From: a virus
Strand: one strand, 5' to 3'
IMG/VR virus record: IMGVR_UViG_3300047471_000283
Coordinates: 1 to 38,119 of that record
Length of the DNA: 38,119 nucleotides
The notes under the pieces were generated by a model. The model did not search any database. It saw nothing but the letters and a program-made list of their open reading frames with translations, and was not told the DNA's origin. Below, piece after piece: positions 663 through 23,899 of the stretch. The translations under genes were made by a program, and so were the position numbers. The stretch's first letter is position 1; each line of letters starts with the position of its first letter.

Positions 663-3191
663 GTGCCCGGATTCGGTCCATTCCTCGAACAGATCGGCAA
701 AGCCCTTCCGGAGATTGGGGAGGCGCTGTTCAAGCCGTCCATCCCTGAAGCCGCAGAGCGGACGCCATCCACACTGATCGATCAGGGCAAGCAGTTGCCT
801 CCGGCAATCGGCCAGAGAAGCGTGGGTGTTCCCTTCCACGGGGACCCCACGCTTCAAGCAGCGACCCGGACCACGAACGTCGAGCCGCAGACGGTCGGGG
901 ACTGGGTGACACAGAAGAAGAACGCGCTGATGGGCTTCATCCAGTCGGACCCGGGGATGCCTGCGGACATCCGGGACCAGTTGGTCAATCACCGGGCCAA
1001 CGTCGAGGAGTCGAACTACCTCGCGTCGAAGGCCCTCGCGCCGGTCTACGAAGGGCTGACGAAGAACCCGCCTGAGCAGGCGGCGGCCATGTGGGACTAC
1101 GCGGTGGCGGCCGACGACCTCGCGCAGGCGAAGCGCGAGAACTACAGCAGCATCCTCAAGGTCGGCGACGACGGCAAGGTGCTCAACGTGCCGATCGACA
1201 AGTGGGAAGCGCACATGCAGAAGCTACAGGACTACGTGCAGCAGGACCCTGAGATCGTGGACGCGCTCGCGAAGCGGTCCGCGATGTGGAAGACAGTATT
1301 CCAGAGCATGGTGGACGAAGGTGCCATCGTGCCGGAGCGCGAGTTGCAGGACTACACGCCGATGCGGCACCTCACGGGGATCGCGCGCGGTCTTGCTACT
1401 GCAACTGGAGACGAGACCCTCGTGCGTCGTCTCTCCGCCGTCGGGCGTCGTGGTGTAGCAGGCGGGGCGCGCGAAACCAATCTGGCTGTGTTGGAGCATG
1501 ACGTGATCCGGCGTTTCATCAAGTGGAAGGCCGACCGGCAACTCTTCACAAACCTGATGTCAGACCCAACGATCAACCTCACCGACCAGTTCAAGTACGG
1601 GCAGCAGCTTCCCTCCAACCTCACCCGGTTCGACCCAGGCCCGGGTCAGATCGGCTACATGAAGCGGCCTCCCGAGGCGGACTTCCTGTCGGGCGCGGCT
1701 GACGTGCTCCACAAGGACAAGTACGCGAGCGGCGGCTTCGTCATCCCCAAGGCTCTGAAGGCAGCACTGGAGAACATCTCGCCGAAGGACGCGGCTGCCG
1801 AGGACGTGTGGCGGAAGGCCGGGAAGGGCGTCGCCCGCTGGCTCACCGTCTACAACCCGAAGAACCTCTCGCTCAACATCGGCTCCGACCTCGTGACCGC
1901 CCTGATGGGTATGCCCGGGGAGAAGGCGCAGCCGCTGGGCATCCTCCGCTGGTATGGGAAGACGGCCCGGGGCGTCGTGAACGCGGCCGTGCACGGGGAC
2001 AAGTACATGGTCCGCGTGGGTGGTGTCGATCATGACGTGATGGCGCTCGCGCGCGAGCACGGGCTGATGGGCTCGACCTTCATGAACGAGGTCAAGGGTG
2101 GCGGCTCGATCGCCCCGGAACTGGAGCACCTGCTCCCACCGGGCTCCGTGCAGCACAACCCGCTGACCGAGTTCGCCGGGAACCTCCGTCAGGGCTTCGA
2201 GCTTGCCCCTCGCATCGCGGCGGGGCTGGAAGCCATGGAGCGCACCGGGAAGCTCAGTGACTTCGGTCGCGTCGGACGGGAGATCACGCTCAACTACGGC
2301 GGCGGTGCCCCCGAGGCGTCGCGCGTCCCGATGTGGAAGCTGATCGCCCCGTTCATCAAGTACATGGGCCTCGCCACCCGGCGCTTCGCGAATCTCGCGA
2401 GCACACCCGGCTCGCGAGGGAGAACCATCGCAGCGGTCGTCGGTGTGCCGTTCGCGGCCATGATGTGGAACCAGCAGAACGAGGCGTTCAAGAAGGTCGA
2501 GGATGCTCTCCCCGACTACGAGCGCAGCGGGATGCACCTCATCATGCACGACCCCTCCAACCCGGCTGTGCCGCTGGTGGACCGGCAGGGCAAGCCTGTC
2601 GTGCTCCGCTTCCGGTACCTGATCACGGAAGAGATGATGAAGCAAGCCGGACTGGGCAACCTCCCAGCGAGGATTGGTCGTCTCGTCACGGGTCAGGACA
2701 CGCCGGGCCAGTTCGCCGGGGAGACCGCGAAGGCGTTCGCCGGGAACATCGGCTCGATGATCACCATGCCCTCGCTGGCGCTCGACGCGCTGTCCGACAC
2801 GGACCGCTTCGGCAAGCACAGGGACATCGGTGAGAAGCTGATGCGGACGATCCCACTGGCGAAGATCATCAACGAGGGCTTCACGAACACGAAGGACTAC
2901 GGCCTGCTGGCCGGAGCCCAACGTACCGCCGAGGAACTCGCTGGCCTGAGCTTCGCGAACGTGACCCGCAAGGGTCCGAGTGTGATGGACGCAACGCTGA
3001 TGGATCACATTCGGCAACTGAAGGATGCGCGGTCGGCTCTCAAGCTGGCCTACCGCAACCAGAAGTCCCCGACCGAGAAGCAGAAAGCGATGGACAACCT
3101 GAAGGCGGCAGCGAAGGAACTCCAACGCTATGCCAAGGCCAAGGGTGCGATGAACGCTGCTGAGAAGCAGGCAGTCACGGAGGCACAGTAA
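663..3191 (+). CDS. Large polyvalent virion protein, LPD38-like (842 aa)
   Basis: Starts at GTG 663, five bases after AGGAGG (652-657). The 842-aa product is helical, with no signal peptide. Residues roughly 390-650 hold features I associate with the large polyvalent protein-associated domain LPD38 of phage internal virion proteins: a WLTVYNPKNLSLNIGSD stretch, then a DFGRVGREITLNYGG segment followed by IAPFIKYMGLATRRFAN. The last about 90 residues are Lys/Ala-rich and probably coiled coil. Such proteins in podo- and siphoviruses are usually carried in the capsid and ejected with DNA. It is the last big gene before the holins. The family assignment is from memory of sequence style, not a search. 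Confidence 0.7.
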   Translation: MPGFGPFLEQIGKALPEIGEALFKPSIPEAAERTPSTLIDQGKQLPPAIGQRSVGVPFHGDPTLQAATRTTNVEPQTVGDWVTQKKNALMGFIQSDPGMPADIRDQLVNHRANVEESNYLASKALAPVYEGLTKNPPEQAAAMWDYAVAADDLAQAKRENYSSILKVGDDGKVLNVPIDKWEAHMQKLQDYVQQDPEIVDALAKRSAMWKTVFQSMVDEGAIVPERELQDYTPMRHLTGIARGLATATGDETLVRRLSAVGRRGVAGGARETNLAVLEHDVIRRFIKWKADRQLFTNLMSDPTINLTDQFKYGQQLPSNLTRFDPGPGQIGYMKRPPEADFLSGAADVLHKDKYASGGFVIPKALKAALENISPKDAAAEDVWRKAGKGVARWLTVYNPKNLSLNIGSDLVTALMGMPGEKAQPLGILRWYGKTARGVVNAAVHGDKYMVRVGGVDHDVMALAREHGLMGSTFMNEVKGGGSIAPELEHLLPPGSVQHNPLTEFAGNLRQGFELAPRIAAGLEAMERTGKLSDFGRVGREITLNYGGGAPEASRVPMWKLIAPFIKYMGLATRRFANLASTPGSRGRTIAAVVGVPFAAMMWNQQNEAFKKVEDALPDYERSGMHLIMHDPSNPAVPLVDRQGKPVVLRFRYLITEEMMKQAGLGNLPARIGRLVTGQDTPGQFAGETAKAFAGNIGSMITMPSLALDALSDTDRFGKHRDIGEKLMRTIPLAKIINEGFTNTKDYGLLAGAQRTAEELAGLSFANVTRKGPSVMDATLMDHIRQLKDARSALKLAYRNQKSPTEKQKAMDNLKAAAKELQRYAKAKGAMNAAEKQAVTEAQ

Positions 3192-3477: not shown

Positions 3478-3862
3478 CCTGCTCGATGTGGGCAAGACCC
3501 TCATCGACAAGCTGATTCCCGATCCGCAGGCCAAGGCAGCGGCCACGCAGAAGTTGCTGGAGATGCAGCAGAACGGTGACCTCGCGGTCATCGCTGCTCA
3601 GTCTCACATCAACGAGATCGAGGCGGGCAACGCGAACCTGTTCGTCGCGGGCTGGCGGCCTGCGGTGGGCTGGGTCTGCGCCCTCGGCTTCGCCATCATG
3701 TGCTTCAGCCCGCTCCTGTCGTGGGCGGCGGCTCTCGCCGGTCATCCGGTCGTGGTGCCCGCCATCCCCACCGAGGGGCTGATGACGATCCTCATCGGTA
3801 TGCTCGGCCTCGGTGGTATGCGGACGGTCGAGAAGTTGAACGGTGCACAGGGCAACCACTAA
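3455..3862 (+). CDS. Holin, 3-TM GTA-type family
   Basis: ATG 3455 has AAAGGAG about 5 bases upstream. The 135-aa protein has an amphipathic N-terminal half (DVGKTLIDKLIPDPQAKAAA, then a Gln/Glu-rich helix) and a membrane C-terminal half beginning at FVAGWRPAVGWVCALGFAIM and ending in GMLGLGGMRTVEK. This order, with the N(A)RP-like 'GWRPAVGW' before the first TM and the Gly-rich last segment, is typical of the 3-TM holin family first described with gene transfer agents (GTA_holin_3TM). It would form inner-membrane lesions at the end of infection. The matching endolysin is not next to it but on the opposite strand at 5.3 kb. Confidence 0.88.
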   Translation: MAFDPISSLLDVGKTLIDKLIPDPQAKAAATQKLLEMQQNGDLAVIAAQSHINEIEAGNANLFVAGWRPAVGWVCALGFAIMCFSPLLSWAAALAGHPVVVPAIPTEGLMTILIGMLGLGGMRTVEKLNGAQGNH

Positions 3863-3872
3863 GGAGGCAGTC

Positions 3873-4037
3873 ATGCAGGTTCTTCTGATGGCGTTACAGT
3901 TGGCGGTGAGTGCGGCTGCGGCTGCGCTCAACGGGTTGTTCTTCGGTGCGGGGTTCGCGGTGGCGGCGGTGCTGGTTGAGAGACGGCTGTCGCAGAAGGA
4001 CGCGGCGAAGCTCGGTGAGAACCCGGCTGTGAAGTAG
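3873..4037 (+). CDS. Small membrane protein at end of late operon
   Basis: ATG 3873 is preceded by AAGGAGG at 3861-3867, which overlaps the holin stop, so I prefer it to an upstream GTG that lacks such a site. The 54-aa product is one long hydrophobic Ala/Leu/Val segment (about residues 3-36) followed by a short charged tail (ERRLSQKDAAKLGENPAVK). It is the last gene before the bidirectional terminator. A second holin/antiholin role fits its place and shape but is unproven. Confidence 0.8.
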   Translation: MQVLLMALQLAVSAAAAALNGLFFGAGFAVAAVLVERRLSQKDAAKLGENPAVK

Positions 4038-14550: not shown

Positions 14551-15488
14551 TCTGCATCGCTCCCTTCCGGAGTCTCGTACGTGTCCTCGCGCCTCTTGAA
14601 GTAGCGCGGGTCGCCCAGTTCGTACTCGCCCGTGAGGACACGGAAGTACTCGTCTGGGCTGTTGCCATATGCCCCACCGTTCATGTTCTCGTTCGGGGCG
14701 GGCACTTCCCCGTGAACATTCCAGCGAATCCGTGCTTGGCGCATCTCCCTCGCGTGGGTCTTGATCGAGTCCATGACGTGCTCGTGCAGCGGGCTGTCAA
14801 GGTCGATCGCGACCGGCACCTGTTGAAACATCTCTTCGTACCGCTTGCACTCACCCAGCGGGTGGGCCTTCGTCACCTTGGTCCGGTACTTCAGCTTCCG
14901 GATCAGGTCGAACTGCGTCCCACCGTAGCCCTTCACAGAACCCTTGTACTTCGCCATGAGCGCCTCTGCGTAGAGGTGCTCGTGGTAGCTCCGCTTGGCA
15001 AGGTCGGTGAAGACTCCGAAGTGCGTTCCGGAGGCGAGGGCTTTATGCTGAACATGCCACAGCATCCCGTGGCGTACAGCCACGCGGTCAGGGCGACCGC
15101 GCGCAACCAGATCGTTTCCAAGTTCCAGTGCAAACGGGACCTCCACTTCGAGATCGTACTCCACTGGGTACGTGTCGTGCCAGAGGAGCAGAGCCTCGGT
15201 GAGGTCGTCCAACTGCTTGAGCACCTTCGTGCCCACGGCAATGTCAACCTCGTCAGTCGTCGTCGCCATCAGCGAGAGCCAGTTGCCCCGGTGCTGCGCG
15301 ATGCTGTCAGCCATCGACAGCCCGAGGTGGTGACTCTCGAAGATGCGGTGGATCAGCTTGCCGAACCCGAGGGGCTGGGCCTCGTGAGCAGGGACGAAGT
15401 CCATGACCCACTTGGCCCACCACCGGAAGCGACACCGCTGGAAGTCCTGCATCTCGGAGATGTTGAAGACGTACGGTTCAGTGAGCAT
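14547..15488 (-). CDS. PD-(D/E)XK nuclease, RecB/Cas4-like
   Basis: ATG 15488 with AAAGGTCC upstream; 313 aa. The N-terminal ISEMQDFQRCRFRWW and GKLIHRIFE (H47) segments are characteristic of the PDDEXK_1 (RecB/Cas4-like) family. The catalytic centre reads GRPDRV (D134) then LWHVQHK (K149): the usual Glu of the E-x-K motif is Gln147, an accepted but less common variant. No iron-sulphur Cys cluster is seen, so it is not a standard Cas4. It neighbours the primase and probably processes recombination or replication ends. Confidence 0.85.
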   Translation of the reverse strand: MLTEPYVFNISEMQDFQRCRFRWWAKWVMDFVPAHEAQPLGFGKLIHRIFESHHLGLSMADSIAQHRGNWLSLMATTTDEVDIAVGTKVLKQLDDLTEALLLWHDTYPVEYDLEVEVPFALELGNDLVARGRPDRVAVRHGMLWHVQHKALASGTHFGVFTDLAKRSYHEHLYAEALMAKYKGSVKGYGGTQFDLIRKLKYRTKVTKAHPLGECKRYEEMFQQVPVAIDLDSPLHEHVMDSIKTHAREMRQARIRWNVHGEVPAPNENMNGGAYGNSPDEYFRVLTGEYELGDPRYFKRREDTYETPEGSDAE

Positions 15489-15783
15489 ACCGGACCTTTC
15501 GTTTCACCGTCCGGGTACGGTGACAGTTAGCACAAACCACTTCACACTTCGCGATCTCTCGGAGTAGTCGATCGGTTCCGTAGTTCCAACAGCGCCCGAT
15601 ACAGAGGAGCTTCCTACCACGAACATGATCGAAGTCCATGCACTCGGGAGGGTACTTTCGCCCGCAGTCAGCACAGGGAACGTTCTTAGCCCCGATCAGT
15701 AGCTGCTTCCGGCGCTGGTACCGTTCACGGTAGTACTTCCTTCGGTGTGCGAGCACACTACTTCGCTGACTTGAACGAGCCAT
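15478..15783 (-). CDS. Short HNH endonuclease, paralogue 2 of 3
   Basis: ATG 15783, 101 aa, no clear ribosome-binding site; it overlaps the ligase gene upstream by 26 bases and the nuclease gene by 11. The core PCADCGRKYPPECMDFDHVRG ... VVCANCHRTRT is nearly the same as the paralogues at 12821-13084 and 22411-22761, including shared DNA around 15615-15640. The basic N-terminal about 30 residues (HRRKYYRERYQRRKQ) are a likely DNA-binding helix. A free-standing mobile endonuclease. Confidence 0.8.
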   Translation of the reverse strand: MARSSQRSSVLAHRRKYYRERYQRRKQLLIGAKNVPCADCGRKYPPECMDFDHVRGRKLLCIGRCWNYGTDRLLREIAKCEVVCANCHRTRTVKRKVRYAH

Positions 15784-16528
15784 CGTTATCGATTGTCGCC
15801 TTGAACAAGCTGCCAGAAGCAGCATGAAACACGACAATCCCCTCGGCGGCGTGTCCCGGAGCGGCGATTGAGCCCTCCTTGCGGAGCCACTCGATCATGA
15901 ACTCGGGGACGAAGCGCATCCGCCGAGACTCCGGCTCGTCCTTGAACCCGATCACGTTCATCCACGGCCCTTCGTACAGCACGGGGACCACCGAGATCGC
16001 GACCCCCTGCTCGCGGATGGACTGAAGCTCCTCCGTCAACTGCCACGGGTGACCCAACTCGGTCTGGAACCACTTGAACGTGTTGAACAGGGAGAAGGTC
16101 TTGCCCTCCGCCCCGTAGCCACGCTGAATGCCCTTGCCCCACCACTCGCCGAAGTGCGTCCCCTCGCCGAGGGCGTAGATGAGGGCGTCCTTGTTGTCCT
16201 GAACCCACTGACCGAAGCCAGCGTTGTCCCGGCCCGGGGCGAGCATCCGCGTCCGTGACTGGGCCGCGATCTCGAATCGCCCGGTCAGCTTGCCGGTGCT
16301 GGTGGAGTCGGTCTTGCCGGTGAACGGATCGGGCTCGCGCTCCTGCCAGATCACGACAGCGGCATTGGTGCCGTCGAGCTTCTCGGTGATGATGATGTTG
16401 CGGTTGAGGCGACCGATCTTCGGCCACGCCTTGAAGTCGGGCACGGCCATCAGGTAGTCGATCTCAGCCGCGCGCTCGGCCTCAATGCGGGCCTTGATCG
16501 CTGCCACTTCCTCGGGAGTCTTCTTCAT
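15758..16528 (-). CDS. RNA ligase family protein (nucleotidyltransferase)
   Basis: ATG 16528 with AAAGGACAATC upstream; 256 aa. Motif I is ITEKLDGTNAAV with K50 as the candidate AMP-accepting lysine; GEWWGKGIQRGY (127-138) and FSLFNTFKW (145-153) fit motifs III/IIIa, EGIVVF (229-234) motif IV, and LFKAT (241-245, K243) motif V. This is the layout of the RNA_ligase (Rnl2/DRB0094-like) family. It would seal nicks in RNA, for example tRNA cut by host defence. There is no polynucleotide kinase gene in the window; a PPP-family phosphatase is at 24230-24958. Confidence 0.86.
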   Translation of the reverse strand: MKKTPEEVAAIKARIEAERAAEIDYLMAVPDFKAWPKIGRLNRNIIITEKLDGTNAAVVIWQEREPDPFTGKTDSTSTGKLTGRFEIAAQSRTRMLAPGRDNAGFGQWVQDNKDALIYALGEGTHFGEWWGKGIQRGYGAEGKTFSLFNTFKWFQTELGHPWQLTEELQSIREQGVAISVVPVLYEGPWMNVIGFKDEPESRRMRFVPEFMIEWLRKEGSIAAPGHAAEGIVVFHAASGSLFKATIDNDGSFKSAK

Positions 16529-17656: not shown

Positions 17657-18235
17657 CTAGTCCCCCCTCGGTCGGATGATCGAGATGACCTTGTCGATGA
17701 AGATGGCCCGGAGCCCAAGCTCGTCCTGCACAGCCCGGCCCCACAGGTAGTCGTGGATGTTCGCCTGCCAACCCTGCCACGGAGGGAGGAGCCGCAGGTT
17801 CGGCACCACAAACATTGGTGTGCCCACGTTACACAACTCGTACACGGGAACACGCCAGAGGATGCGGTTGTCGGCACCGTACTGCATCCGGAAGACCAGC
17901 ATGTTCTCGGGGTGGCGGCCGATCGCGTCCCTCGCTGCGGCGAGCGCATCCGGGGTGAAGATGTCGTCGTCGTCGCAGAACATCAGGTGGGTGCCCGTCG
18001 CCAACTCCATCCCCTTGTCCCGCTGGCTGGCCCCGTTGTTCGCTGTCTTCACGGGCGTCTGAGTGAGCCGGAGTTTCCCCAACCCGAGAGAGACGTTGAA
18101 GTCCGGCCAAAAGTCCCCGGGACCGTCATGAACCACGATCAGTTCGTCACCATCCAGCAACTGTGGACCGATGCTCAGGATCGTGTTCTTCAGGGTCGGC
18201 CGACCACAGGTGGGGACGATGACCGAGAGCCTCAC
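17657..18235 (-). CDS. Glycosyltransferase family 2 (GT-A fold)
   Basis: GTG 18235 overlaps the stop of the next glycosyltransferase in GTGA; ATG 18259 is an alternative without a better ribosome-binding site. In the 192-aa product, LSVIVPTCGRPTLKNTILSI is the nucleotide-sugar-binding start of GT2 enzymes and THLMFCDDDDIFTPDAL carries the DxD-like metal site (DDDD). The length is short for GT2, so only the catalytic fold is present. It lies with a second GT2 and an FAD/SDR fusion, forming a phage glycan island. Confidence 0.87.
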   Translation of the reverse strand: MRLSVIVPTCGRPTLKNTILSIGPQLLDGDELIVVHDGPGDFWPDFNVSLGLGKLRLTQTPVKTANNGASQRDKGMELATGTHLMFCDDDDIFTPDALAAARDAIGRHPENMLVFRMQYGADNRILWRVPVYELCNVGTPMFVVPNLRLLPPWQGWQANIHDYLWGRAVQDELGLRAIFIDKVISIIRPRGD

Positions 18236-18954
18236 TTCTGTTCCCACAGTGCCCCCCATTCCCGGTTGAGGTTGCGGATGACGCTGATCTCGCCGCTGCC
18301 CATCTTCGCCATCTTCTCGTAGTGAATCAGCCGCATCCGTTCCATCTCCGCACCGAGGTCATGGCGTGCGTGAGGCAGGTGGTTGGCGATGATCAGCGGG
18401 TGGTGAACGAAGCGGATGCCCATCGTGTTGAGGCGGAAGGCGAGGTCGTCGTCTTCGTAGCCGTACTCGGTGAAGTCCTCGTCGTAGCCCCGGATGTGCT
18501 GGAGCGGGGCGGTCAGCATCCCACCGAAGAGGAAGTAGGGCCGCTGGCTGCCGGACACCTCGACACCGTTCTCCTCGATGCGAGCGAGGTGGGCGGAGCC
18601 GAAGTCGTCCATGATGTGACCGTACAGGTCGTACAGGGCACCGGCCCGGGGCACGATGCCCGAGTGGCAGATGATCGTGACCATCCCCTGCGCGCGGCGG
18701 ATGCCGACGTTGAGGGGGCGGGACGGGTTGCGCCACCGGCTATCACCTCGGTTGAGACGGTGGTACTCGACGGTGATCGGCATGGCTTGGATCGCGTCGA
18801 GCAGCCCCGGCTCGTCGGTGCTGTCGTCCACCACGATGAACTGGTGGCTGACCCCGAGGTCGGGCTGGTTGAAGAAGGACGCCATCGTCTGCTTGAAGTG
18901 CTCGACCCGATTATGAACCGGGACCACGACCGTCAGGTCGTACGTTGGCTGCAT
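18232..18954 (-). CDS. Glycosyltransferase family 2 with galactosyltransferase-like C-terminal part
   Basis: ATG 18954 with GGAGTT 5 bases upstream, overlapping the FAD/SDR gene by 22 bases. 240 aa: LTVVVPVHNRVEHFKQTMAS (GT2 start), FIVVDDSTDEP, then GMLTAPLQHIRGYDEDF and YGYEDDDLAFRLNTMGIRF, a pattern of the Glyco_transf_7C / galactosyltransferase type (GxDExFxGWGxEDxDL variant). Soluble, no TM. It would transfer a hexose from a nucleotide sugar to a glycan, phage protein or modified base. Confidence 0.88.
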   Translation of the reverse strand: MQPTYDLTVVVPVHNRVEHFKQTMASFFNQPDLGVSHQFIVVDDSTDEPGLLDAIQAMPITVEYHRLNRGDSRWRNPSRPLNVGIRRAQGMVTIICHSGIVPRAGALYDLYGHIMDDFGSAHLARIEENGVEVSGSQRPYFLFGGMLTAPLQHIRGYDEDFTEYGYEDDDLAFRLNTMGIRFVHHPLIIANHLPHARHDLGAEMERMRLIHYEKMAKMGSGEISVIRNLNREWGALWEQK

Positions 18955-20714
18955 ATGAACTCCTTCAGTGCGGCCTTCACCTCGTCGAGGGTCATGACGT
19001 ACGGACCCGGGACGTTGTAGGTGACGGTGGGCTTGTCGTAGAACTTCTCACCGCCGACCTCCTCTTGCAGCCAGCCGAAGTCGAGCGGCGGGGTGACGAG
19101 GTTGACATCGGTCAGGTCGCGGATGCGGATGTCCTGAATGTCCGACCACAGGCGAGTGAGCGGGTACCACTGGAACGTAGACCACGGACTGACCTCGATC
19201 GGCCGCTTGTGGAGCAGATCGAAGAGCGCGTTCTTCTTCAGGCCCGGACCGAACAGGGCGGGCAGGCGGATGATGCGGACCTTGGGGAAGTGGTCCTTGA
19301 CCCACATCTCGAAGGCCCAACGGTTCGCACCGTAGCTCGTCTCGGGCGGGTAACCGAACCGGCGCGGAATGGCATCGACCGTGCTGATGAGGATGAACTC
19401 GTCAGTGGTCACCTTCTCCAGCATCCGCTTCAGGCGGGTCAGCATCGCGAAGTCTTCGTCCGGATGCATGTTCGCCCACCACTTGGTGCCCTTCAGGGCG
19501 GTGCATACGATCTGGCTGTAGTGACCGGGGTCGAGTGGCTTCATCGTGTTGGACAGGTCAGTCCACCGACCATCACCCATCAGAGACGAGCCGACGAACC
19601 CAGTGTAGCCGACCAGTGCTCGGCGTCCACGCCGCAGGACACCAGTCTTGCCTCGCACCATCCACTCACCTCGTTCGATCTCATCCACCGCATCATAGAA
19701 GCTATTGAACTTGGACCCGAGTACTGAAACCACTCGCGGCGATTCGGCCGAGTACTCCCACAGGATCGGACGCCCATCGTTCTCCTCGTTCTGCTCCAGC
19801 ACGACGCGCGTCGTCCAGAGCGAGCCGGTGTGCACAGCCCGACCCAGCGAGGGTACGAACCGCTTCACGTCCCGGAGCATAGCTTCCCAGTTCGAGTCCC
19901 TGTGGAGCGGGCCGTGTGGCTCCGAGTTGATCCACGTATCGTGCGGCGTGTAGGTGACGTGGGTCAGTGCCTTCTCGCCAGTGGGCGGATAGCCCATCAG
20001 CGACCAGTACGGACCGTCCATCACGGTGATGTCCACGTCGAGGTCCGGCACCTGACAGAGCGCCACCTCGCACCACTCCTTCTTGAGGCGCGTCTTCAGA
20101 CCCGGCACGACCTTGTCGAGGTTGGCGTAGGTGCAGTTGAACACGTAGCGGGCGGTGATGTAGAAGGCGGAGAGCCGCTCGATGTTCGGGATCACCCGGA
20201 CGAGGACGTTGTTCTCGTCACCCTTCACCGGGAAGCCCGTGCCCGAGAGGGTCGGGATGCCTGCGAGGGTAAGCTGGCGGGCCGTCATCTCCCGCAGCTT
20301 CCGCACGTCGAAGCTAATCTCCGGCACGCTGTACACCTGTGACACCATGTCGTGGGCGAAGAGCGTGTGCTTGATCGGCCGGATCGGGGCACCGATCTCC
20401 CTCGCGACGCGCTCGAACTCGGCCGGTGGGGTCTTGCTGTTGTGGGCGATCGCGTACCAGTGGTCCTTGTTGGGGGCCATGGCGTAGACGTGGTCGTTCA
20501 GGAAGCGCCGGTAGTGCTTCGCGGCCGACCGGGCCGTCTCGATGTAGCGAGGATAGTGCATCCCCGAGTGGACGCGGGCTTGGTTCACCCGGGTCGCACT
20601 CGACATGATGGAGGACGGCTCCACGATCACGACGCTCAGGCCCACGTTGTGGAGGGCCAGCGCGATCTTCGTACCGTAGAAGCCTCCGCCCAACACAACC
20701 GCATCGACTTTCAT
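18933..20714 (-). CDS. Bifunctional fusion: FAD-dependent oxidoreductase (DAO type) plus SDR/epimerase-like domain
   Basis: ATG 20714 overlaps the GroES-like stop (ATGA). 593 aa. Residues 4-360: FAD-binding GGGFYG (9-14) with Glu32 closing the beta-alpha-beta, then NQARVHSGMHYPR (44-56), a signature I know from oxidoreductases in surface-polysaccharide clusters. Residues 365-590: Rossmann motif G369-x-x-G372-x-x-G375, LISTVDAIP (442-450) and YGANR (461-465), the YxxxK active site with Arg for Lys, as in atypical extended SDRs. I know these as separate genes; here they are one chain. The product may oxidise and epimerise a sugar for the two neighbouring glycosyltransferases. Confidence 0.88.
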   Translation of the reverse strand: MKVDAVVLGGGFYGTKIALALHNVGLSVVIVEPSSIMSSATRVNQARVHSGMHYPRYIETARSAAKHYRRFLNDHVYAMAPNKDHWYAIAHNSKTPPAEFERVAREIGAPIRPIKHTLFAHDMVSQVYSVPEISFDVRKLREMTARQLTLAGIPTLSGTGFPVKGDENNVLVRVIPNIERLSAFYITARYVFNCTYANLDKVVPGLKTRLKKEWCEVALCQVPDLDVDITVMDGPYWSLMGYPPTGEKALTHVTYTPHDTWINSEPHGPLHRDSNWEAMLRDVKRFVPSLGRAVHTGSLWTTRVVLEQNEENDGRPILWEYSAESPRVVSVLGSKFNSFYDAVDEIERGEWMVRGKTGVLRRGRRALVGYTGFVGSSLMGDGRWTDLSNTMKPLDPGHYSQIVCTALKGTKWWANMHPDEDFAMLTRLKRMLEKVTTDEFILISTVDAIPRRFGYPPETSYGANRWAFEMWVKDHFPKVRIIRLPALFGPGLKKNALFDLLHKRPIEVSPWSTFQWYPLTRLWSDIQDIRIRDLTDVNLVTPPLDFGWLQEEVGGEKFYDKPTVTYNVPGPYVMTLDEVKAALKEFICSQRTT

Positions 20715-20998
20715 GCGCGGAACACTCCGAGAAGGTCAGACTCCATCACGAGGTAGCACCGTTCCTTCGGGCTTTCAGCCACAAGCTGTAGATCGATGGG
20801 AGTGCCGCAGTACTTGGTGGTGACAACCGTCTCCAGTGGGCGCACACTCGTAACCTGCGGGCCAACTGCCAGCACGAGGGCGAACTGCGACTCCTTCGTC
20901 TCATCGAGATGTACGACCTCGATGAAGGCGGACTGGAGCTTGTCTTCGTCAAGGCGCTTGATGAGCACACGTTTTCCTTGGGGGGTGAGGACGTTCAT
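20711..20998 (-). CDS. GroES-like co-chaperonin
   Basis: ATG 20998 overlaps the MazG-like stop in ATGA. 95 aa, the usual GroES length. GKRVLIKRLDED matches the N-terminal strand, FIEVVHLDETKES is the mobile-loop region, FALVLAVGPQ, VVTTKYCGTPIDL and YLVMESDLLGVF follow the GroES order. The phage has no GroEL here, so it would work with the host chaperonin, perhaps for capsid protein folding like T4 gp31. Confidence 0.85.
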   Translation of the reverse strand: MNVLTPQGKRVLIKRLDEDKLQSAFIEVVHLDETKESQFALVLAVGPQVTSVRPLETVVTTKYCGTPIDLQLVAESPKERCYLVMESDLLGVFRA

Positions 20999-21297
20999 GA
21001 CTGACTCCGTTCGTAGTTGATGAGGTACCGCAGGGCCATCGCACCGGTCTGAGCGACCTCGTGCAGCGTCTTCTTCTGTAGGCGGGGGAGCAGCGTGGTC
21101 TGACCGACCGCCTCTGCCTCCTCGACCATGTTGAGCGTGGCCTGCATCACCTCGCCCGCTTCTTCCACGAGGATCGCAGCCTGTCGCACCGGATCGTGGT
21201 GCCAACCGGGGTGCTTCTTCTCGGCCGCCCGGAGGGCTGCCATGATACGCATGACGGCTCGGACCTCGGGGGCGGTGACTTCCTTTTCCTTCGCCAT
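20995..21297 (-). CDS. MazG-like nucleotide pyrophosphohydrolase family protein
   Basis: ATG 21297 with GGAGGGCTG upstream, overlapping the gene before (TGATG). 100 aa, all helical. AAILVEEAGEVMQATLN is the E-x-x-E-[GAV]-E motif of all-alpha NTP pyrophosphohydrolases, and LHEVAQTGAMALRYL is the second helix with the E...D-type positions (here E, Q). The second acidic pair is partly lost, so activity is not certain. Likely hydrolyses (d)NTPs or (p)ppGpp-like nucleotides. Confidence 0.75.
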   Translation of the reverse strand: MAKEKEVTAPEVRAVMRIMAALRAAEKKHPGWHHDPVRQAAILVEEAGEVMQATLNMVEEAEAVGQTTLLPRLQKKTLHEVAQTGAMALRYLINYERSQS

Positions 21298-22410: not shown

Positions 22411-22761
22411 CTACTTCTCCTTCATGCGGTTCTTAGTCCGCGTTCGATGGCAGTTGGCACAGACGAGATCGCACTTGGCGACCTCTTTGAGCACGATTGC
22501 CCAGCGCCGGAGAACATTCTGTGTATTGACCATGAAGACCTTCCGGCCCCTGACATGATCGAAGTCCATGCACTCGGTCGGGTATGAGTACCCACAATCC
22601 ATACATGGAGCAGCCTTCAAGGCAGCCATCCGCTCTCTACCTTTTGCCGCAGAGACCCTTGACTGTCTCTGCGCGATCATGCGCCAACGACCCGGGTGTG
22701 CTTTCCGCCATTTCCGGGACTGCTTGCGGCGGTAAGCCTTTGTCTCACTGGGTAGGCGCAT
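22411..22761 (-). CDS. Short HNH endonuclease, paralogue 3 of 3
   Basis: ATG 22761 with AGGAGG upstream, overlapping the helicase gene by 17 bases. 116 aa: basic N-terminal about 45 residues (KAYRRKQSRKWRKAHPGRWR), then PCMDCGYSYPTECMDFDHVRG and LVCANCHRTRTK. Same core as at 12821-13084 and 15478-15783, here with the longest basic arm. Wedged at the end of the helicase gene like a free-standing homing nuclease. Confidence 0.85.
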   Translation of the reverse strand: MRLPSETKAYRRKQSRKWRKAHPGRWRMIAQRQSRVSAAKGRERMAALKAAPCMDCGYSYPTECMDFDHVRGRKVFMVNTQNVLRRWAIVLKEVAKCDLVCANCHRTRTKNRMKEK

Positions 22762-23899
22762 CCGCAACCTCCTGTGACAGTGCGAAGTACGACACACGAC
22801 CGCCCGGCATGTGCTCCTTCGCGACCCGGGGCTTGACCCGGCGAAGTTCGGCAGCGAGGCGGTTGTAGATGACCTGACGGAACTTCTTCAGGTCGGGGAT
22901 CAGCGTGTTCATCGTGGGGTGGAGCGCGTCGGCGATCTGGTTGATCGACACCGTCTGTCCCCTCGCTGCGTTGGCGAGCCAGCCGACCACGTCGTCGGTG
23001 ATGCTGTCGGTCAGCGCACCCTTCTGCTCGGCCGGTGGCTGGCAGAACACGAGGCTCGCTTCGGTCTCGGTGCCGGTGCCCACGTTCATCTCGTAGTGGA
23101 AGTTCGGTGGCGTGATGCCACGGAACTTCAGGAACTCGACCTCGACGACGTACTTCTCGTCCTTGGTCGGGTTCAACTGGATGTGGTTGTCAAGTGCGCC
23201 CGGTGCCGACGAGGCCCCGCGCCAGCCCTTGCCATCGCTGAACTCGCCCGCCTTCGGCCCGTGGTGGAGGACCAGCACAGCGGCCCCCGTATGCTCGGTG
23301 ACGAGGCGGATGTTGCGGAAGCACTCCTCGGTGATCGTGTTGTCGTTCTGGTTCCCCCGCGTGAGCTTCGAGAAGGTGTCGAAGATGATCAGGCTGAAGC
23401 CCCGCCGCTCACCCTCGTGGCCCCAGCGGAACCGGTTCGAGGTGGCGATGATCTTGCGGATCGTGTCGAGGTTGTCCAGCATGAAGTTGGACTGGATCAG
23501 GAAGCGGATGCGCTCGTCGAAGGGGTTGGGCTCGAACTCGCCGCCGAGGGCAAGGTCCTCCTCGGTCGGGTTGTGGGCGGCCCAGTCCTTGGCGGTGAGC
23601 CGCCGCCACTGTTGCGCGTAGTCATGCTTCGAGGCGTCGGAGCCGACGAACAGGACGGTGCCGGGCTCGGCTTGGAAGCTGCCGAGGTAGCGGCCACCGA
23701 CGATGACGGCGCGGCCCATCTCCAGTGCGTTCCACGTCTTGCCGGAGCCGGGTGCGCTGGTCAGAGCCGTGATGGTCCCCTTCGGGATCACGTTCTCGAT
23801 CAGCATCGGCGGGGGCTCGATCGTGTACAGGTCGGTCGAGGTCGTCAGCCCGTAGGGCTCGATGGACTCCAGACCAACAGTGCGTACGTCGATGTTCAC
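22745..23899 (-). CDS. RepA/AAA_25-type hexameric helicase
   Basis: GTG 23899 with AGGAGGAAGC upstream; sequence further 5' is shadow. 384 aa. Walker A SAPGSGKT (48-55), Walker B FSLIIFDT (168-175), then VLVLHHGPKAGEF (208-220), with the conserved His pair of RepA/DnaB-like enzymes and GWRGASSAPGALDN nearby. The C-terminal about 90 residues look like a winged-helix part (VSINQIADALHPTMN). It is the best candidate for the replicative helicase partnering the primase-like protein and PolA. Confidence 0.87.
   Translation of the reverse strand: MNIDVRTVGLESIEPYGLTTSTDLYTIEPPPMLIENVIPKGTITALTSAPGSGKTWNALEMGRAVIVGGRYLGSFQAEPGTVLFVGSDASKHDYAQQWRRLTAKDWAAHNPTEEDLALGGEFEPNPFDERIRFLIQSNFMLDNLDTIRKIIATSNRFRWGHEGERRGFSLIIFDTFSKLTRGNQNDNTITEECFRNIRLVTEHTGAAVLVLHHGPKAGEFSDGKGWRGASSAPGALDNHIQLNPTKDEKYVVEVEFLKFRGITPPNFHYEMNVGTGTETEASLVFCQPPAEQKGALTDSITDDVVGWLANAARGQTVSINQIADALHPTMNTLIPDLKKFRQVIYNRLAAELRRVKPRVAKEHMPGGRVSYFALSQEVADAPTQ

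Follow-up and report, generated by a model that had tools for sequence, protein, structure and literature searches.

The oxidation of one sugar position with FAD, followed by its reduction with NAD(P)H, is established for DprE1/DprE2 (PMC9993113). Among phage-encoded enzymes, the closest described systems are the GT-A type glycosyltransferases, namely TarP, a prophage-encoded wall teichoic acid glycosyltransferase (PMC9650247), and those of the Gtr type. Here we analysed the whole virus record IMGVR_UViG_3300047471_000283 (38,119 bases; hereafter the window), in which a DAO-type FAD-dependent oxidoreductase is fused to an SDR-like domain and adjoins two glycosyltransferase genes, GT1 and GT2. 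To our knowledge, the TarP and Gtr systems have no linked redox enzymes. No description of the DAO-SDR pair, or of a phage fusion of the two, was found in the limited literature collection searched.

The fusion gene and its glycosyltransferases

Besides the cassette, the window encodes a family-A DNA polymerase, an exonuclease, a Sak4-like annealing protein, a helicase-like ATPase, an RNA ligase, a lysozyme and a holin. The record is probably a fragment of a phage genome: scanning of window proteins revealed no recognisable capsid, portal or terminase, for which related records do have genes. Searches with the polymerase and the helicase returned distant matches only, mostly to actinophages at ~24% identity, which is insufficient for naming a host. 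Near the cassette lies an RNA ligase-family gene (PF09414; 15758-16615), and a small GroES-like (Cpn10) protein is encoded directly upstream of the fusion (20711-21019). The window also has two HNH-like endonuclease genes (15478-15837 and 22411-22797). An 842-aa protein without family match (663-3191) is possibly structural.

As the sequence-only reading of this DNA had proposed, three genes occupy 20714-17657 (Table 1). They lie on the minus strand and are transcribed in the order fusion, GT1, GT2, and the overlaps between GT1 and the fusion (22 nt) and between GT2 and GT1 (28 nt) suggest translational coupling. The same reading took the 593-aa product for a DAO-type FAD oxidoreductase joined to an SDR-like domain, and Pfam, blastp and the separate folds bear this out. 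The two halves were folded separately because a joint fusion/DAO/SDR alignment seemingly put SDR rows on the DAO loop; the structure predictions thus cover each domain alone. The N-half (mean AlphaFold2 pLDDT 92.2) scores 38.7 bits against Pfam DAO (PF01266; cut-off 27.9), and its best PDB folds are glycine oxidase and glycerol-3-phosphate dehydrogenase (TM 0.74-0.76 to both) and sarcosine oxidase. In all of the 44 DAO sequences aligned, G9, G11 and G14 of the GxGxxG loop are invariant, as are N44, Q45, R47, H49, G51, H53, Y54, P55 and R56 of the NQARVHSGMHYPR signature. Judged from its predicted fold and these residues, the N-half is a DAO-type flavoprotein with a putative FAD site.

The C-half (pLDDT 92.8) alone scores below the Pfam cut-offs. 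Its best PDB folds are UDP-glucose 4-epimerases (Foldseek probability 1.00) and other nucleotide-sugar SDRs, with TM about 0.6-0.7, its profile match is dTDP-4-dehydrorhamnose reductase, and blastp links it to the SDR genes of bacterial operons (identity up to 41%, E down to 5e-44). G369, G372 and G375 of the GxxGxxG loop, and Y461 and R465 of the YxxxR motif, are invariant in 40/40 SDR sequences, and the canonical YxxxK pair is absent. Most SDRs have a lysine where the C-half has the arginine, and catalysis may therefore differ. We regard the C-half as an SDR-fold relative from a distinct subgroup, not as a canonical extended SDR. The halves fold as two different enzymes rather than as one single-domain family, and both dinucleotide-binding loops are present as judged by fold and invariant residues; the account of a two-enzyme fusion withstood both comparisons.

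Both glycosyltransferases pass PF00535 (GT1 27.5 bits, GT2 49.4 bits; cut-off 23.3), in agreement with the claim of two enzymes of the GT2 family. At the position where its relatives mostly show a metal-binding DXD-type motif, GT1 reads CHSG; in GT2 the DDD is conserved in 6/6 phage relatives aligned. Since it lacks the DXD motif and no relative of it was found in the three related phage records described below, GT1 lies outside the conserved core of the cassette. To call the three genes a complete-looking sugar modification set, as had been done, is too strong. Apart from the missing DXD of GT1, a search with a GtrA model near the three genes gave no match, a flippase was likewise not found, and no TIM-barrel isomerase (PF01261) was detected in the window or in the three related phage records, which are possibly fragments; the same search was positive in two other genomes (G004 and G005).

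Table 1. Features of the cassette (positions in the window, residues in the respective protein; L090 denotes IMGVR_UViG_3300025922_000014)
Feature	Length or residues	Position	Strand	Evidence
DAO-SDR fusion gene	593 aa	18933..20714	-	ORF; Pfam DAO; blastp to separate DAO and SDR genes; second fused copy in L090
N-half, FAD-dependent oxidoreductase (DAO) domain	1-346	19677..20714	-	AlphaFold2; PDB fold comparison
NQARVHSGMHYPR signature (NQxRxHxGxHYPR)	44-56	20547..20585	-	Alignment of 44 DAO sequences
Linker	347-365	19620..19676	-	Partly conserved in L090
C-half, extended-SDR/epimerase-like domain	366-593	18936..19619	-	AlphaFold2; PDB folds; profile match
GYTGFVG dinucleotide-binding loop (GxxGxxG)	369-375	19590..19610	-	Alignment of 40 SDR sequences
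YGANR, YxxxR active-site motif	461-465	19320..19334	-	Alignment of 40 SDR sequences
GT1, GT2-family glycosyltransferase	240 aa	18232..18954	-	Pfam PF00535 and PF02709
CHSG at the DXD position of GT1	96-99	18658..18669	-	Alignment with Streptomyces, Agrobacterium and Nocardia relatives and TarP
GT2, GT2-family glycosyltransferase	200 aa	17657..18259	-	Pfam PF00535 (6.5e-13); relatives in L090 (three), L010 and L012
DDDD (DXD) motif of GT2	96-99	17963..17974	-	Alignment with phage relatives

Relatives in bacteria and in phages

On bacterial plasmids, tblastn found the DAO and SDR halves as separate genes. The order SDR - TIM-barrel isomerase - GT - DAO - GtrA - GT2 recurs in Sagittula, Cereibacter, Sphingomonas and Ruegeria, and variants of it occur in Azospirillum, Psychrobacter and Mesorhizobium; operon genes left unnamed by the annotation were recognised through models built in this analysis. 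Among the 80 bacterial genome loci collected with DAO, an SDR gene lies within the locus in 67 and is fused in none, just as the halves had been supposed to be separate genes of bacterial surface-glycan clusters. The TIM barrel is present in 62 of these 67 loci, and in most bacteria other genes stand between DAO and SDR. No DAO-SDR fusion was found in 289 genomes of the class to which a Microvirga isolate belongs. What looked like a bacterial fusion (G109, L218) is a pair of neighbouring genes in the same frame, with a TAA stop and a spacer of 9 nt between them, an arrangement from which a fusion could arise easily.

A second fused copy is carried by one further virus record, L090 (63,464 bases), whose fusion is 61% identical. 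The two phages share the flanks of the fusion, i.e., a helicase-like ATPase and a GroES-like gene (in L090 at 3588-3917) on one side, and an acidic 231/245-aa protein, a PD-(D/E)XK exonuclease and a 355/363-aa gene on the other. The L090 neighbourhood holds three glycosyltransferases of the GT2 type, the L090 portal matches podovirus-type head-tail connectors, and the 842-aa protein mentioned above is 36% conserved in its record (L211:10027-12615). In two more distantly related phages of this group the genes are unfused. An HNH gene (L010:7037-7462) lies exactly between DAO and SDR in L010 (IMGVR_UViG_3300036861_000552); in L012 (IMGVR_UViG_3300033233_000118) DAO and SDR are in different frames, with a 19-nt overlap. 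A GT2-type transferase adjoins the pair in each, and GT2 relatives accompany DAO and SDR in all four phages. In the fusion, the linker ends in GRRAL, a stretch that the free-standing SDRs of L010 and L012 also carry close to their start.

The DAO tree unites the four phages in a single clade (SH-aLRT 97), within which the window, L090 and L010 (99) and then the window and L090 (93) group together. For the SDR, a topology with a four-phage clade had the better likelihood and was not rejected. On this phylogenetic evidence, the DAO/SDR pair is old in this phage group. The simplest reading places the fusion event in the branch of the window and L090, although the HNH gene may instead have separated an originally fused pair in the L010 branch. 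The DAO-SDR fusion is real and has so far been seen in phages only. Scanning viral contigs with a single protein, the fusion or GT1, gave no matches, and relatives required alignment-based queries; the count of fusions is a lower bound because pattern-based scans miss relatives, as the DAO scan missed the DAO of L090.

The cassette had been thought most likely taken from a bacterial LPS/EPS cluster. Recent transfer from such a cluster of the host was rejected as unsupported: the composition of the fusion and both glycosyltransferases is native (GC3 0.84-0.89 by codon position, equal to the other genes of the window phage), the four phages group in one DAO clade, and among the bacterial relatives found none exceeds about 43% identity over DAO. 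An older origin of the two halves from an LPS/EPS-type cluster is possible.

Scans of IMG/VR yielded 163 stretches with DAO, of which the best 80 were kept, and 37 with SDR; adding 14 SDR-bearing records gathered by the SDR query gave 94 distinct viral DAO records. These are not independent, as related phages are counted separately and some may be misfiled bacterial contigs (e.g., L011). Within this set (best 80 of 163 plus the SDR query), DAO is fused to SDR in 1/94, the window being a further case, and accompanied by a separate SDR gene in 22/94; a Gfo/Idh/MocA domain is fused to its N-terminus in 39/94 and encoded by a separate gene in 19/94; neither partner was seen at first count in 13/94, and both together in 0/94. 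Pfam confirmed the Gfo/Idh/MocA identity in examples and revealed a neighbouring partner in four of those 13, namely a classical SDR (L018, L055, L075) or Gfo/Idh/MocA (L029). Thus, 85 of the 94 records (best 80 of 163 plus the SDR query) have an adjoining or fused NAD(P)-type oxidoreductase, and no partner was identified in nine. In the DAO-query set alone (best 80 of 163), SDR or Gfo/Idh/MocA occurs in 67/80.

The same flavin oxidase is separately fused a second time in the Gfo/Idh/MocA-DAO proteins (~580 aa; L030:5278-7020 and 38 other viral loci). They resemble the fusion of the window in joining the same DAO family to an NAD(P)-binding oxidoreductase, but the partner is N-terminal and belongs to another family, and their DAO stands elsewhere in the tree. 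At three such loci that we read, a sugar-transferase-like gene precedes the fusion; this is our own reading, with no family match.

A putative two-step sugar oxidoreductase

With our confidence evenly divided, we propose by analogy that the 593-aa fusion is a two-step redox enzyme acting on one sugar, the product of which is then attached by a glycosyltransferase. The N-half would use FAD to oxidise a sugar hydroxyl to a keto group, the C-half would reduce the keto group again with NAD(P)H, giving an epimer or an otherwise altered sugar, and the fusion would keep the sites side by side, so that one passes the keto intermediate to the other. GT2, with its intact DXD motif, would attach the altered sugar, and GT1 would be accessory. 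We infer cofactor binding, the relay, the sugar and its target alike, as distinct from the observed fusion, folds, motifs, glycosyltransferase linkage and viral pairing. The relay is supported by the two separate, confident folds, the bacterial operon partnership (67/80), the neighbouring DAO and SDR genes in the unfused related phages, and the retention of the fusion with glycosyltransferase neighbours in the second phage. Consecutive redox steps also appear likely because the NAD(P) partner families are swappable and DAO entered two separate fusion events.

Nevertheless, several observations count against the relay, among them the YxxxR motif of the SDR half and the nine viral DAO records in which no partner was identified. 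The TIM-barrel isomerase that accompanies the bacterial pair (62/67) suggests a third step in bacteria; as it was not found in the phages, the product of this phage may be simpler than that of the bacterial operon, or a host enzyme may be used. NAD(P) oxidoreductases are also common in glycan islands, and part of the linkage may come from membership in one pathway, not from steps in direct succession. Alternatively, the halves could serve one pathway on different molecules, the fusion merely matching their amounts: the SDR half would be an atypical nucleotide-sugar epimerase/dehydratase, and the DAO half would oxidise another intermediate, e.g., an amine or hydroxy acid. The YxxxR motif, the fold neighbours of DAO, which are amine and hydroxyl oxidases alike, and the intervening genes in most bacteria are consistent with this alternative. 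We consider it less likely than the relay, given that viruses repeatedly pair or fuse DAO directly with different NAD(P)-oxidoreductase families.

If the two-step relay is genuine, the cassette might represent a widespread, undescribed viral sugar-redox system. We suggest tentatively that a single family of flavin oxidases, which can exchange its NAD(P) partner (YxxxR SDR, Gfo/Idh/MocA or classical SDR) and has undergone at least two separate fusions, carries out a two-step epimerisation like that of DprE1/DprE2 for virus-encoded glycans. The cassette indicates that phages alter sugars themselves, beyond transferring those of the host. The fusion also offers an entry to an uncharacterised sugar pathway that many surface-glycan clusters of bacteria and over a hundred virus records contain. 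Fusion and partner swapping suggest which two enzymes cooperate, so that the reaction catalysed by the pair in bacteria could be learnt from a single purified protein of the phage.

Possible destinations of the sugar and comparison with known systems

The altered sugar would most likely end on the virion or on a host glycan rather than on DNA. Virion proteins, glycosylated in the host cytoplasm, are the best-placed candidate, to which we give somewhat less than an even chance. The fusion, GT1 and GT2 have no membrane-spanning segments (maximum 19-residue hydropathy 1.4), and actinophage glycosyltransferases are thought to glycosylate capsids (PMC11256854). A slight further point is a glycosyltransferase (phrog_7162) near the major head protein in the structural module of the related G002 (L214:11397-12662). 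Against this, replication genes surround the cassette in the window and L090, and lysis genes adjoin it in L010 and L012.

A slightly less likely destination is the host surface, where a changed receptor glycan would block superinfection, as in Gtr seroconversion or with TarP. The bacterial relatives of both halves sit in EPS/LPS-type clusters, and GT1 weakly matches TarP in sequence. Nevertheless, no GtrA flippase was found near the phage genes and none of the three proteins has the membrane anchor of a GtrB, which speaks against a Gtr-type seroconversion cassette. No integrase was recognised among the scanned window proteins, and a lysogenic benefit is therefore not evident. Hypermodification of DNA bases is very improbable: phage glycosyltransferases join in base modification in other phages and the cassette lies within the replication region of the window, but both halves have their relatives in surface-glycan operons and, as a weak point, no thymidylate-synthase/hydroxymethylase member (PF00303) was found in the four related records, which are possibly fragments (a Tet/JBP search with PF12851 gave no match, its control being likewise unmatched).

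Compared with TarP and the Gtr-type enzymes, the window likewise has phage-encoded glycosyltransferases of the GT-A type; it differs in that GT1 lacks DXD. The bacterial surface-glycan operon, as on plasmids of Sagittula sp. P11, Ruegeria conchae and Sphingomonas sanguinis, is homologous to both halves along their length (DAO 28-39%, SDR 28-39% identity) and has the same signatures. It differs in that DAO and SDR are separate, whereas the phage has them fused, with no TIM barrel or GtrA found, and blastp recognised no kinship between the phage and operon glycosyltransferases. With DprE1/DprE2 of mycobacteria the fusion shares the proposed logic, i.e., FAD oxidation of a sugar hydroxyl and then NAD(P)H reduction, but the mycobacterial system consists of two proteins and the phage has one. 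DprE1 belongs to another flavoprotein family, the VAO family; no DprE1-type Pfam domain was found in the phage proteins, and the N-half is DAO-type by Pfam and fold. The phage fusion would work like DprE1/DprE2 but stand outside that system.
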